From positions 1 through 53,792 of the forward strand of contig SZOV01000011.1 of assembly GCA_030263375.1 (NCBI GenBank): DNA of 53,792 bases, in the 5' to 3' direction. Positions within the stretch are counted from its first letter, which is position 1; each line of letters begins with the position of its first letter. The notes below the pieces were generated by a model. The model was not told where the DNA came from. It searched no databases and worked only from the letters and a program-made list of their open reading frames with translations. Positions 22,280 to 27,425 of this stretch are shown piece after piece. The position numbers and the translations under genes are program-made. The DNA comes from Deltaproteobacteria bacterium PRO3 (GTDB taxonomy: Bacteria; UBA10199; DSSB01).

Positions 22280-22828
22280 ATGATTTCCAAAAAATCCCTG
22301 ATTCCCCTGATTTTGCTGCTTACCTTCAGCACCGCCTGCCTGGGCGAAAAAAAGAAAGAAGCGGCCCCCGCCGCCCCGGCGCCCGTCGAGGCCAAGGCCG
22401 AAAAGACCGAGGCAGCCCCCGCGCCGGCACCGGCCGCCGCCCCCAAGCTCGCCACCCCGGTCGACGCCGTGAAGGGCTTCTTCGACGCCATCTCCAAAGA
22501 ACAGTACGACGTCGCCTGGGCCAGCCTGACCAAGACCAGCCAGGACAAGTTCGTCACCATGGTCGCCGAGGACGAAAAGCTCGATCCCGCCAAGGTCCGC
22601 GACCTCTTCGTGCAAAATCAAATGCCGATCCGCATCGGCTTCTGGCGCAGCTTTCGCAATTCCTCCAAGCTCGACATCGTCGCGCCCGGCGCCTCCTACA
22701 AGGTACTGAACGAGGGCCCCGAACTGGCCGAGGTCGAGATGACCTCTGGCGACGTCGTCCTCAAGTCCAAGGCCCTCAAGGAAGACGGGCAGTGGAAGAT
22801 GGGCTACGTCGAGACCTTCCTGCCTTAG
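22280..22828 (+). CDS. Putative lipoprotein with DUF4878-like domain
   Basis: 182 residues from the ATG at 22280, preceded by AAAGGAGG. Signal peptide KKSLIPLILLLTFSTAC ends in a lipobox with Cys19. An Ala/Pro/Lys/Glu-rich linker follows (about residues 24-60). The globular part starts ATPVDAVKGFFDAISKEQYD and ends DGQWKMGYVETF, the usual ends of the NTF2-like DUF4878 type. An earlier in-frame ATG at 22253 has no ribosome site. The stop overlaps the convergent gene by four bases. Confidence 0.82.
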   Translation: MISKKSLIPLILLLTFSTACLGEKKKEAAPAAPAPVEAKAEKTEAAPAPAPAAAPKLATPVDAVKGFFDAISKEQYDVAWASLTKTSQDKFVTMVAEDEKLDPAKVRDLFVQNQMPIRIGFWRSFRNSSKLDIVAPGASYKVLNEGPELAEVEMTSGDVVLKSKALKEDGQWKMGYVETFLP

Positions 22829-23349
22829 CGGATATTTTCGTTGTAGACGCGGATCTTTTCGATGCGGCTGCGGTCGGGGGCGTAGAAATACTCGACGATG
22901 TAGTCGTCGGTATAACGTCCCTCGAAGCCGCCGTTCGGCGGGGCGCAAGGGTCACTCCCGGTGGGGATGTTTTGCCGGTGGGTGGGCGGACGCGTCCCCG
23001 CGATCGGGGCGGCCTGGACGGCCAGGGCCTCGGCCTGGGACTTGCCGATCGGCGCCTGCGGGACGATTTCGACCATCGCGACCATCTTGGTGTCCACTTG
23101 ATAGAGGGGATGGAAGAAGGCCGCCGTCACCTGCATCCCCTTCCCGCTCATCGGCACGTAGCGCCGGTCCTTCAGGCAACCCGAGGCGCCCTTCGCGGGG
23201 GCCTGCGCCTGATAGCCCTGGGCCTGGGCCCATTGCGCGGCCTCGGCCTCGCTGCTGCCGAGGATCTCGCGCGCCTCCGCCCGGGAGGCCGCGACCAACG
23301 CCGTCGCCGCCAACATACACAGGATAAATAGGGATTTCTTCGGGGTCAT
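22825..23349 (-). CDS. Secreted protein of unknown function
   Basis: 174 residues with a signal peptide (KKSLFILCMLAATALVAASRAEA) and a likely cleavage after AEA. The mature part has two Cys (SGCLKDRR, SDPCAPPNG) that could form a disulfide, and ends in a Tyr-rich beta segment (YTDDYIVEYFYAPDRSR). I recognise no family. Its ATG overlaps the TGA of the large kinase-like gene upstream (ATGA), so the two are probably coupled. Confidence 0.75.
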   Translation of the reverse strand: MTPKKSLFILCMLAATALVAASRAEAREILGSSEAEAAQWAQAQGYQAQAPAKGASGCLKDRRYVPMSGKGMQVTAAFFHPLYQVDTKMVAMVEIVPQAPIGKSQAEALAVQAAPIAGTRPPTHRQNIPTGSDPCAPPNGGFEGRYTDDYIVEYFYAPDRSRIEKIRVYNENIR

Positions 23350-26318
23350 AGACTCGCCACGCGGGCGAAGGGCATTGTGCTACCGCCGACCCAGGCTTGC
23401 AAGGACTCTTCTTGTCCGGCCCGCAGGACGCCGCGGGCGTCGAAGAGGCGGCGGATCTCGTTGTTTTCCGGGATCTCCAGGCCGTGCAGCTGCGCGGCGG
23501 CCTGCTGGAGGCGATAGGCGTAGATGTGGAGCACGTGATCCCTAGCCTCCTCCCGGCTGGCAATCACACCGCGGAATTGCCGGTGCAGGTAGGCCGCGGT
23601 CTCCTCGATGTCCGCGCCGGCGCGCAGCCGGCCGCGGCCCGCGCAGTGTTCCAGCTGGTCGAGCAGGTCGCGCTGCAGCGGCGTGAGCGCGATCTCCCGG
23701 CCGAAGACCTCGGCGGCGCTGCCGCCCAGGGCCGCGGGCAGCCAAGCCATCTCCTGCCGAATCGCGTCCCGCAGCAGCGAGCTCTGGCGCTGGTCCTGGC
23801 GCTGGATCTCGTTGCGCACCTCGTTGGAGGAGCCGAAGAGGAATTCGTGGCTGTCGATGTAGGCCGAGATCGAGGGCGCCAGCAGGCGCGGGATGTTGCG
23901 CCAGCTGAAGGCGCCGATCTCGCCGCGCTCCCGGCGCAGCTCGGCCGCGCGCAGGTCGGTGTACATCTCGTAGGTGGCGCGCTCGCCCAGCTGCAGGCGG
24001 CGGATGCCGGTGAAGCCCAGGTCGCCGATGAAGCCCGCGGCGAAGGCGCGTCCCGCGAGGCGCATCGGCCGCGACTCGAGCAGGCGCAGGCTCTGGCTCG
24101 GCAGCGCAATCCGCGCGACGTCGGGCAGGAAGAAGGCCGCGGTCGGGGCGTAGCGCCGTAGCGCGGAGCCCTCGGGCATCGAATCGGTCAGGCGCTCGGC
24201 GATGCGGCTGAAGATCAGGCCCTCGCCCATGTTCCAGGCGGAGCGCGGCAGCAGCGTCGCCAAGGAGACCCCGCGGCGCAGCAGGGTGCGGCCGAAGCCG
24301 GCCTCCCAGCCCAGGCCGCGCAAGGCGCTCTCGCCCAGGGCCCCCGCGTAGGAGGGCCTTTCGAGGAAAGTCCATTGTCCCAGGCGTTCGCCGGCGATGC
24401 GCACGGTGCGCAGCGAGGCCAAATGATAGGGCTGCCGCAGCAGGGCGTTGGCCGTCACCTGCCAAAGGCGATGCGTGCTCGCGCTCGCGGCGTGCGAGAG
24501 GTAGACGACGAAGGCGAAGCGCAGCTCGCGCTGGCGCACCGGATCGAGCCCGACGATGTCGGCCAGACGTTCGGCGCCGATCAAGGCGGCGATGCCCGTG
24601 GCCAGCGGCGGACCGCCGCGCAGCACCCGCTCGCGCAGTGCGCGCAGGCCGTCGCGGTTCTCCTGCGCCCATTGCCGGCCGGTGTCGCCTTGCAGCCAAC
24701 GCTCCAAATTCTCGATGGTGAGGCCCTCGGAGGCCAGTCGCTCCAGCTGGGCGAAGTTCTCGACTCCCTGCGCGGCTGTCAGGAGGGACTCGGCGCGCTC
24801 CGGCGAGATCCGGTATTGCCGCATCAGGGAATAAAGCCGCGGCAAAGAGACGAAGGGCGTGCGCACGGTGCGGCGCCCCTCGGCGTTCTCGATCACCTTC
24901 GGCTCGAAATCGGGCACCTGGTTGTAGACCAGCTGTTGGTCGCTGATCATCGGCGTCTCCCCGCGCACCAGCCAGCTGGAGCGGGCGAGGCGCACCGCCA
25001 AGGAATTGGGCGCCGCCAGCTGAGTGATCGTGAAATTGGGCGCGTGCACGGTGAAGGTGGAGCGCGGCGGAATCACGTCGCCGTTCTGCTGGGCGGGCAC
25101 GAGGATGGGCTCGTTGGCCGGAGGCACCCGCGTCTCGGGCTGGGCGTTGCCCATGCGGATCTGGAAGTCCTGGTAGGTGCGGATCAGGTCCCAGGCGAGG
25201 CTGTCGGGCACCGTGGCGCGCACCTCGATCTTCTCGCCGGGGTTGACCAGCCACTGCCGCCGCGCCGAGAGGGTCCATAGGCGGCTGCGCGGACCGACGA
25301 GGTTGAAGCCGATCTTGGTCATCAGGCCGCGGGCGATGTATTCGGTCAAGGCCAGGACACCGCGCGGACCCGGCGGGAGGACGACGACCTTGGTCTCGCC
25401 CCAGGCGCCCGGCACGCCGCCGACGAAGGCGAGGATGCGGTTGGGCGTGACCGTCACCTCCGAGCCCTTCATCGTCTCGCGCTCGATCTCGCGGCCGTCG
25501 AGGGTGCTGCGGGTGAGCGTCACGTCGACGCCGACCAGGCCGTAGCGGTTGGCGATGGCGTGCGGGATCAGGCGCAGGTAGCTCAACAATCCTTGGTTGA
25601 ACAGGCCCTCGGGATTGGCGGCGCGATTGCGCTGCCGCAGGCCGAAGAGATACCCGGAGGCGAGAAAGCCCATCGAATGCGTGCCCGCCTCGGCCCCGTC
25701 GACGATCGGAAAGCGGAAGCCCAGCTCGACCGAACGGGCGATGAAGCGCGGCAGGTCGCGCAGGTCGCTGGGCGCATGCACCTGCACCGCGTTGTCGGCC
25801 GCGGTGCCCTTTTTCACCAGGACGAAGACGCTGCGTCCGCTCGGTGATTCGACGCCGGGGACGGTCTCTTGGCCGGGGGCGAAGGAAGTGCCCGAAGCTC
25901 GCAAGGCCTCGCCCACCGTCTCGCCGATGGTCCCGTCGCCGCCGACCGGCAAGACAAAAATCCTTTGGCCGCCGCGCAGGGCCTCGGAGACCGCGTTGCG
26001 GATACGCTCGCGCCGGGCCTCGAGGTCGGGGACGGTCTCGACGGGGATGACGTTCGCGCCCGAGTTTCGCAAGATCTCCAGCAATTGGGGAAGGTCGCCC
26101 CCGATGCGCCCGTCGCGGGCGGCGGGGTTGAAGACGACGACGATGGTCTGGCCGGACAGGGTGTTGCGCCGCGGGCGCAGGATGGCGGACAGGGAAGGAA
26201 GCCGCCGCCGCGGGGCCGCGGGCCGAGCTTCTTCGCCGGAAGCGGCCTCGGCGCCGCCCGTGAGATTCGCCTCCATGGGAGGATTCGAACCCGATCCTAT
26301 CCGTCCGGGGGGAGTCAT
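23346..26318 (-). CDS. Large fusion: diacylglycerol-kinase-type domain plus ~550-residue unknown region
   Basis: 990 residues. Residues about 57-435 read as a DAGK/LCB5 lipid-kinase fold: VVVFNPAARDG (64-70 region), then FVLPVGGDGTIGET with the nucleotide-binding GGDGT at 126-130, and later QNGDVIPPRSTFTV in the place of the DGE strand of YegS-type enzymes. These phosphorylate lipids such as diacylglycerol. After that come about 550 residues rich in Arg, Leu and Ala, predicted helical, without a family I know. No signal peptide. Free-standing DAGK enzymes are about 300 residues, so this is a fusion. A second start at 26276 is possible. It follows queF and is coupled to a secreted protein. Confidence 0.8.
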   Translation of the reverse strand: MTPPGRIGSGSNPPMEANLTGGAEAASGEEARPAAPRRRLPSLSAILRPRRNTLSGQTIVVVFNPAARDGRIGGDLPQLLEILRNSGANVIPVETVPDLEARRERIRNAVSEALRGGQRIFVLPVGGDGTIGETVGEALRASGTSFAPGQETVPGVESPSGRSVFVLVKKGTAADNAVQVHAPSDLRDLPRFIARSVELGFRFPIVDGAEAGTHSMGFLASGYLFGLRQRNRAANPEGLFNQGLLSYLRLIPHAIANRYGLVGVDVTLTRSTLDGREIERETMKGSEVTVTPNRILAFVGGVPGAWGETKVVVLPPGPRGVLALTEYIARGLMTKIGFNLVGPRSRLWTLSARRQWLVNPGEKIEVRATVPDSLAWDLIRTYQDFQIRMGNAQPETRVPPANEPILVPAQQNGDVIPPRSTFTVHAPNFTITQLAAPNSLAVRLARSSWLVRGETPMISDQQLVYNQVPDFEPKVIENAEGRRTVRTPFVSLPRLYSLMRQYRISPERAESLLTAAQGVENFAQLERLASEGLTIENLERWLQGDTGRQWAQENRDGLRALRERVLRGGPPLATGIAALIGAERLADIVGLDPVRQRELRFAFVVYLSHAASASTHRLWQVTANALLRQPYHLASLRTVRIAGERLGQWTFLERPSYAGALGESALRGLGWEAGFGRTLLRRGVSLATLLPRSAWNMGEGLIFSRIAERLTDSMPEGSALRRYAPTAAFFLPDVARIALPSQSLRLLESRPMRLAGRAFAAGFIGDLGFTGIRRLQLGERATYEMYTDLRAAELRRERGEIGAFSWRNIPRLLAPSISAYIDSHEFLFGSSNEVRNEIQRQDQRQSSLLRDAIRQEMAWLPAALGGSAAEVFGREIALTPLQRDLLDQLEHCAGRGRLRAGADIEETAAYLHRQFRGVIASREEARDHVLHIYAYRLQQAAAQLHGLEIPENNEIRRLFDARGVLRAGQEESLQAWVGGSTMPFARVASL

Positions 26319-26388: not shown

Positions 26389-26817
26389 TCAACCTTTGGG
26401 GAGCGGCAGATCCCGCGTCATCTCGGAAAAATCGGCCTCAGGGCCGGCGCGGGAACCCGAAAAACCCTCCGGATAACGCACCCGAACCGTCGTGCGGATG
26501 CCGCCCCGGACGTAGAAATCGGCCAAGAGCTCCATCCTCCGCGGCCGTACCGCGGCCACCAGGTCGTCGAGGATGCGGTTAGTCACCGCCTCGTGGAAGG
26601 CCCCCTCGTTGCGGTAGGACCAGAGGTAGAGCTTGAGCGATTTCAGCTCGACGCAGATTCGATCCGGGACGTAGCGGATATGCAGGGTTGCGAAGTCCGG
26701 CTGCCCGGTCTTGGGACAGAGACAGGTAAACTCGGGACAATCGAACTCGATCTCGTAGTCGCGGTCGGGATTCGGATTGGGAAAGGTCTCGAGCTGTTTC
26801 GACGCTTGGCTGGGCAT
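26389..26817 (-). CDS. queF: NADPH-dependent 7-cyano-7-deazaguanine reductase QueF
   Basis: 142 residues, the short (YkvM-like) form. [18 protein letters not shown] has the catalytic Cys34 and Asp41. [16 protein letters not shown] is the QueF motif, followed by the substrate-binding Glu/His region [18 protein letters not shown]. It reduces preQ0 to preQ1 in queuosine biosynthesis in the cytoplasm. It lies 8 bases after the PDZ gene. No other que gene and no preQ1 riboswitch is seen here. Confidence 0.95.
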
Positions 26818-26825
26818 GGATTCTC

Positions 26826-27425
26826 CTAGAAGTCGCTTTTCAAAAATTTAATGAACGCGGCCTTGGTGATCTGCTTGGCCTTGAGGGCCTTGAGCAGGTT
26901 CATCATCCTTTCGCGCTGCTCGTCCGTGGTCAAGCCGGAGATTTTCTGCTTGATCAGCTCCTTCTCCTCCGGCGTGAAATAGACGCCGCTCGCCGCGACG
27001 TTGGGCGGCGGCACCGAGACGATGGGGCCGCTCTTGATCGTCTCGCGGGTCAGCGGGACGTCCCGCACGCTGCCGTCGCGCCCCTGCACCGTCAGGAGGA
27101 CTTGGGTGCCGATCGGGCCTCGGATCTTCTCGGCCAGCTGCTGGAGCGTCAGCCCCGTGACGTCCCCGCCGTCGATCTTCAACAGGCGGTCGCCGCGCCT
27201 CACCTTGGCCTTGTCCGCCGGCGATTTGTAGCTGACCGAAAAAATCAGGACGCTCTGCGGATTGTTAGGATCGAAGTCGAGCAGGACGCCGACGCCGCCG
27301 AAGGCCTCGGTGGCCCGCGCGGCGCCGGGCGCCGCCACGCCCAGGGACATGCCCAAGAGCGCCAAGGCCGTCAGGGCGCGCCGAAGGCGGTTTAAGGCAA
27401 TTTTCGCTTCGGAATCCATCTTCAT
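26826..27425 (-). CDS. Exported PDZ-domain protein
   Basis: 199 residues. The N-terminal signal ([24 protein letters not shown]) is followed by a single PDZ domain, [13 protein letters not shown] to [11 protein letters not shown], with the ligand loop region [20 protein letters not shown]. The tail after residue 145 is helical and charged. No protease domain is attached, so it probably acts as a binding adaptor in the periplasm, unlike the PDZ-proteases it resembles. GAGG precedes the ATG by about 10 bases. It heads the operon with queF. Confidence 0.85.

Follow-up and report, generated by a model that had tools for sequence, protein, structure and literature searches.

A divergent lipid-kinase-like domain and a putative lineage-specific helical module in one gene of Deltaproteobacteria bacterium PRO3

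What kind of protein results when a lipid-kinase-like domain is continued, in the same reading frame, by several hundred residues of a helical region that has no Pfam name? The question is raised by a gene on contig SZOV01000011.1 (C11) of Deltaproteobacteria bacterium PRO3 (G000), of which a stretch of 53,792 nucleotides, hereafter the window, was analysed as a whole. A preliminary description of the window had noted the motifs NPAARDG, GGDGT and a late NGD in this gene, and all three were found again at residues 64-70, 126-130 and 412-414 (Table 1). It had further proposed that the fusion couples lipid phosphorylation to a scaffold or to a second activity. The joining itself was borne out, as a domain of the DAGK superfamily and a helical region do lie in one conserved gene, but phosphorylation was placed in doubt by an active site that lacks the Asp-Asp-Gly (DDG) loop and reads NGD in place of Asp-Gly-Glu (DGE).

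Table 1. Features of the fusion gene and its neighbours (window coordinates; residues of the fusion protein)
Feature	Residues	Coordinates	Strand	Basis
Fusion gene, 990 aa, ATG start		23346..26318	minus	single intact ORF; full-length orthologues; purifying selection
Pro/Arg/Ala/Gly-rich tail, no domain predicted	1-55	26154..26318	minus	composition
Divergent DAGK/SphK/YegS-like domain	~56-440	24999..26153	minus	hhalign; PDB profile matches; Pfam DAGK_cat
NPAARDG	64-70	26109..26129	minus	N64, P65, A67, G70 invariant in 6/6 A1 fusion rows
GGDGT, nucleotide-binding motif	126-130	25929..25943	minus	invariant in 6/6 A1 rows and 10/10 A8 rows
GTAAD, counterpart of DAGK GT.ND	171-175	25794..25808	minus	G171, D175 invariant in 10/10 A8 rows
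PGAWGE, where canonical DAGKs have a longer Asp-Asp-Gly loop	303-308	25395..25412	minus	alignments
NGD, aligned with DAGK Asp-Gly-Glu	412-414	25077..25085	minus	hhalign; N412, G413, D414 invariant in 6/6 A1 rows
Shared helical C-terminal module	~491-985	23364..24848	minus	paralogue searches; reversed-sequence control; subset hhalign
Confidently predicted all-helical end	835-979	23382..23816	minus	AlphaFold2 ten-residue blocks mostly 65-88 pLDDT, one at 44
174-aa putative secreted protein; start overlaps fusion stop by 4 nt (ATGA)		22825..23349	minus	no Pfam match above cut-off
QueF (preQ1 synthase), upstream neighbour		26389..26817	minus	Pfam and NCBIfam over cut-off
PDZ-domain protein, upstream neighbour		26826..27425	minus	Pfam PDZ_6

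Homology and active site of the kinase-like domain

When the fusion protein was searched against Pfam, DAGK_cat matched residues 59-140 with an E value of 1.1e-4 and 22.2 bits, slightly under the 23.6-bit cut-off, and no other known domain was obtained above cut-off; in the six-frame search of the genome the same place scored 26.7 bits, which is over the cut-off. A profile of six fusion proteins (alignment A1) was aligned by hhalign with a DAGK profile of nine members, among them C53, itself of the DGD type, at a probability of 98.6 and an E value of 6.5e-16 over 210 columns. After addition of four module-free relatives from the class (G028, G043, G015 and G027, the frame of G043 being incomplete), which gave the ten rows of alignment A8, the match covered 323 columns under a relaxed alignment setting (probability 99.0, E 2.3e-18), and NGD was aligned to the DGE of the DAGKs. 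The ten-row profile also matched bacterial DAGK chains in the PDB, with E values from 7.6e-8 (3t5p) to 9.4e-6, and in the same search unrelated designed proteins at E 0.003-0.004; no PDB chain of a DAGK was matched at E up to 1 by the profile of the six full-length fusions. Judged from these sequence profiles, the kinase-like part is homologous to the DAGK/SphK/YegS kinases. Since the homology reaches residue ~440, the domain is of ~385 residues and the extra region begins at ~446-490; it is thus longer than the ~300 residues which the preliminary description gave as the normal extent of such enzymes.

The predicted structure was compatible with this assignment, though not decisive, and it is on the sequence profiles that the homology rests. 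In an AlphaFold2 model built with eight sequences (mean pLDDT 40.6), only the first ~95 residues of the domain (~50-140) were confident. Foldseek ranked SphK1 (4l02, E 8.5e-4) first and a Bacillus DAGK (3t5p, E 1.9e-3) second, with Argonautes near. By VIA-align, DgkB was matched with Z scores of 7.6 (rmsd 3.5, 104 residues aligned) and 7.4 (rmsd 3.2, 102 aligned), tied with dehydroquinate synthases (Z up to 8.3, rmsd 3.2, 107 aligned). A two-domain fold of the DAGK kind is compatible with the Foldseek ranks, which come from a model confident only N-terminally.

In DAGK and SphK kinases, the acidic residue of the DDG loop and the DGE motif have catalytic roles, and the aspartate of GGDG is the proposed base in SphK1. 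Like DgkB, BmrU, YegS and SphK1, the fusion protein has NP.A..G, GGDGT and GT.xD, its GTAAD being aligned with GTTNDFA of DAGKs, as well as a late NGD/DGE in the domain layout and profile homology over the 323 columns. It differs from them in the length of the domain, in the ~500-residue helical module behind it and in two places of the active site. In canonical DAGKs the DDG loop stands after the GGG strand; it was absent from 6/6 fusion rows, whose loop is short (PGAWGE in PRO3, PWGS in G010, PFDH in G007 and GWGD in G003, with one nearby Asp in G003 and G007). The late DGE motif was replaced by NGD, again in 6/6 rows. Catalysis is therefore doubtful, although the loss of DDG is no proof of inactivity, because the aspartate of GGDG is still present.

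The main alternative, which we regard as possible but rather unlikely, is a lipid kinase that works through an unusual active site, with NGD replacing DGE and some other acidic residue replacing the DDG aspartate, and that is directed to its membrane substrate by the module. In its favour, GGDGT, GT.xD and NGD do not vary among the fusion rows and stand under purifying selection, and relatives with NGD (G028) or DGD (G015) occur in the class, as does a DGD-type relative, C53, in the same genome. It is opposed by the missing DDG loop in all six fusion rows and by another gene of the genome that retains the full canonical motif set, namely a canonical DAGK with DDG and DGE at C37.

The divergent kinase-like layout is held in common with the proteins of G028 (478 aa), G015 (388 aa), G027 (680 aa) and G043 (a 295-aa frame), and G028 resembles the fusion further in having NGD and lacking DDG; unlike the fusion, none of the four matched the C-terminal module. 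The G027 protein (L089:1398-3437) is DAGK-like, has the motifs LDG and NGE as well as hydrophobic stretches towards its C-terminus, and appears intermediate between the canonical and the divergent type. When the PF00781 search was extended over the genome of PRO3, five further places were found below cut-off. One of them, at C65, was rejected as a kinase candidate, its frame running opposite to other open frames and carrying no kinase signature except a chance GGDG. On C65 a 921-aa open frame (L103:2400-5162) shows EF-hand-like stretches by eye.

The C-terminal module and the proteins that carry it

The region after the kinase part is rich in Arg, Leu and Ala, as the preliminary description had it: residues 446-990 consist of 13.2% Leu, 12.8% Arg and 12.3% Ala, and contain a single Lys as compared with 70 Arg. 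Since the highest 19-residue mean hydropathy was 1.30, there is no clear membrane-spanning helix. In a model built with three sequences, the C-terminal part was predicted to be almost wholly helical, with low confidence (mean pLDDT 43) except at residues 835-979.

This region is not confined to kinase fusions. In searches of the relatives' genomes, two size classes of ORF (1245-1939 aa and 612-711 aa) were obtained besides the orthologues and were matched only past residue ~458 of the fusion protein. When a model was built from three kinase-fusion modules, 23 of 977 ORFs were matched at E up to 0.01, and none of the 977 reversed ORFs. Two of the 23 were training rows, four were other kinase fusions, and the remaining 17 rows, which stand for 16 genes since one had been fetched twice, were other proteins. 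Subsets of the module were aligned with one another by hhalign at E values of 2.1e-62, 2.9e-21 and 1.6e-16. By contrast, the N-terminal types (kinase-like, L046, L047 and two short ones) gave no hhalign cross-match better than E 0.11, excepting the short pair, whose relation was found at E 1.4e-5, and the L046-type N-terminal part was not significantly matched by the module profile (E 0.043). Thus no fewer than three N-terminal types that are unrelated to one another are followed by the module, and the proteins range over ~550-1940 residues.

In the genome of PRO3 its members are the fusion gene itself on C11, proteins of 1770 aa (C74) and 1737 aa (C68), and two neighbouring C100 ORFs of 651 and 636 aa that hold roughly the second half of the module. 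With an 18-row module profile (A7), members were found in 8/46 genomes of the phylum set: in 5/7 genomes of the same family, the two misses being 73 and 82% complete, in G007 of the same order, and, with one match each, in G010 (E 1.5e-46) and in G026 (E 1.7e-8). A Pfam search with the 18 members gave no convincing family, the best being DUF7006 for one member at E 0.0017, and we take the module to be a putatively lineage-specific protein family that has no Pfam name.

Comparison with known structures yielded little. A PDB sequence search with the module gave nothing under E 0.24; with its model, the best Foldseek match had an E value of 0.78, and the best VIA-align match (the VPS9 domain of Rabex-5, 62 residues, rmsd 3.1) had a Z score of 6.2, in the range that the tool calls common. 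Such weak or absent matches are not proof of a new fold. An EF-hand-like reading of a C-terminal helix-loop-helix pair, made by eye, was given up as fold searches did not support it.

The other carriers fall into several types. The C74 protein (L046:10158-15464) and its counterparts at L036, L030, L032, L029 and L031 have an N-terminal region of ~1050 residues, longer in L032, ahead of the module, and this region had no Pfam match above cut-off. A second type of ~1740 residues, whose N-terminal part is likewise of ~1050 residues in L047, is represented at C68 (L047:741-5951), L035 and L087. Neighbouring ORFs of ~550-730 aa with the second half of the module were seen at C100 (L092:6152-8104 and L092:8759-10666), L040, L042 and L043; in the C100-type ORFs the half module follows on a short N-terminal part, which has no relation to the kinase. 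Several members resemble one another at their very start, a tail rich in Pro, Ser and Gly that opens with MTPP or MTP.

Two readings of these N-terminal regions made by eye are no more than leads. A putative degenerate GGDEF pair in L047 reached E 0.0033 and a probability of 9.7 by hhalign, and a nucleotidyltransferase likeness of L046 and L032 reached E 0.01 and a probability of 4.1, in a comparison that took in the 2 of 11 fetched loci which passed a motif filter. Neither was listed by Pfam at E up to 10, and PDB profile searches of the paralogue N-terminal parts were empty. Type III secretion of the members, considered on account of their similar N-terminal tails, was set aside, as the FliQ-family match, one per genome in 4/4 genomes, is explicable by a flagellum.

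Possible roles of the two parts

The reading that we favour, and which we hold at slightly less than an even chance, is that of a kinase-derived head with altered or lost catalysis on a lineage-specific helical module that serves the docking or assembly of proteins on a common partner. The gene product would be a soluble two-part protein. Residues ~56-440 descend from DAGK/SphK/YegS lipid kinases, keeping the nucleotide-site motifs GGDGT and GT.xD and having lost the Asp-Asp-Gly loop; this part most likely still binds nucleotide and perhaps lipid, with phosphotransfer altered or lost. Residues ~491-985 are the shared module, putatively lineage-specific, in which several large proteins of unrelated N-terminal parts also end. 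It may dock all these proteins at the same partner or structure, which could be a membrane surface or some large complex, each N-terminal part contributing a different binding function. As the module model is of low confidence, docking is without structural support. Sharing of the module among unrelated N-terminal parts fits the proposed scaffold better than the proposed second activity and proves neither.

The opposite assignment of roles, in which the module has an enzymatic or transport activity of its own and is regulated by the kinase-like part, appears improbable to us. The module does exceed the kinase-like part in size and in spread (8/46 genomes), but Pfam (18 members) and PDB sequences offered no convincing match to a known enzyme, and in the 18-row alignment just four columns were invariant, with Pro, Pro, Phe and Gly, which are not catalytic-type residues.

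In eukaryotic DAG kinases, the DAGK catalytic domain is combined with regulatory or localising domains. The fusion has an accessory-domain architecture as they do, with the difference that its module belongs to no convincing Pfam family. If a docking module with exchangeable heads is correct, the common module carries several heads that can be exchanged, and a lipid-kinase fold has been re-used, possibly without activity, as one of them. It is unusual for an uncharacterised module to change partners in this way within one lineage, although the kinase part is of a well-known superfamily. The module links several large hypothetical proteins within one genome group, and a shared module or shared partner would give a concrete handle on what they do. 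A broader proposal, which we consider doubtful, is that a small lineage, represented here by metagenome-type assemblies only, evolved large proteins on one helical module, each with a different and partly degenerate enzyme-like domain, and that the module assembles them into an undescribed lineage-specific structure or signalling surface.

Conservation and neighbourhood of the fusion gene

A search for the same architecture, as had been suggested, found both halves in 7/46 genomes of the class (G000, G001, G002, G003, G004, G007 and G010). They form a single ORF in all but G003, where the fusion is split into two pieces that both end at contig ends; the ORF of G010 is shorter (824 aa). A frameshift or assembly error that fuses two genes, for which nothing speaks except the unusual length, is excluded for practical purposes, because full-length orthologues in one frame are present in other assemblies with 97% (G002), 78% (G001) and 66% (G004) identity along the gene, and the neighbours are conserved as well. 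Conservation was lowest in residues 1-50, of which 61% are identical to G001. The fusion gene is under purifying selection: dN/dS over the whole gene was 0.08 against G002, 0.17 against G001 and 0.40 against G004, with values for the kinase part and the module of 0.06 and 0.08, 0.14 and 0.19, and 0.33 and 0.46, respectively. Among the papers listed in literature searches on DAGKs, DAGK domain fusions and UBA10199, none announced such a fusion in its title or in the opening of its abstract.

Coupling of the gene to a secreted protein had also been claimed. The 4-nt overlap with the next gene accords with the coupling, while secretion is putative, as the N-terminus of the 174-aa product, which has no family match, resembles a Sec signal peptide by eye. 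The 174-aa gene adjoins the fusion in G001 and G002, and in G003 it is a neighbour of the C-terminal piece; the stretches searched in G004, G007 and G010 gave no match to it, the contig of G004 ending ~150 bases past the fusion. The module genes are scattered and have ordinary genes as neighbours (QueF in the window, a MiaB-like gene at L046), and therefore no tie to one process can be drawn from their position. On the upstream side, QueF was found beside the fusion in G001-G004 and G007, and the full order of PDZ protein, QueF and fusion was kept in G001-G004.
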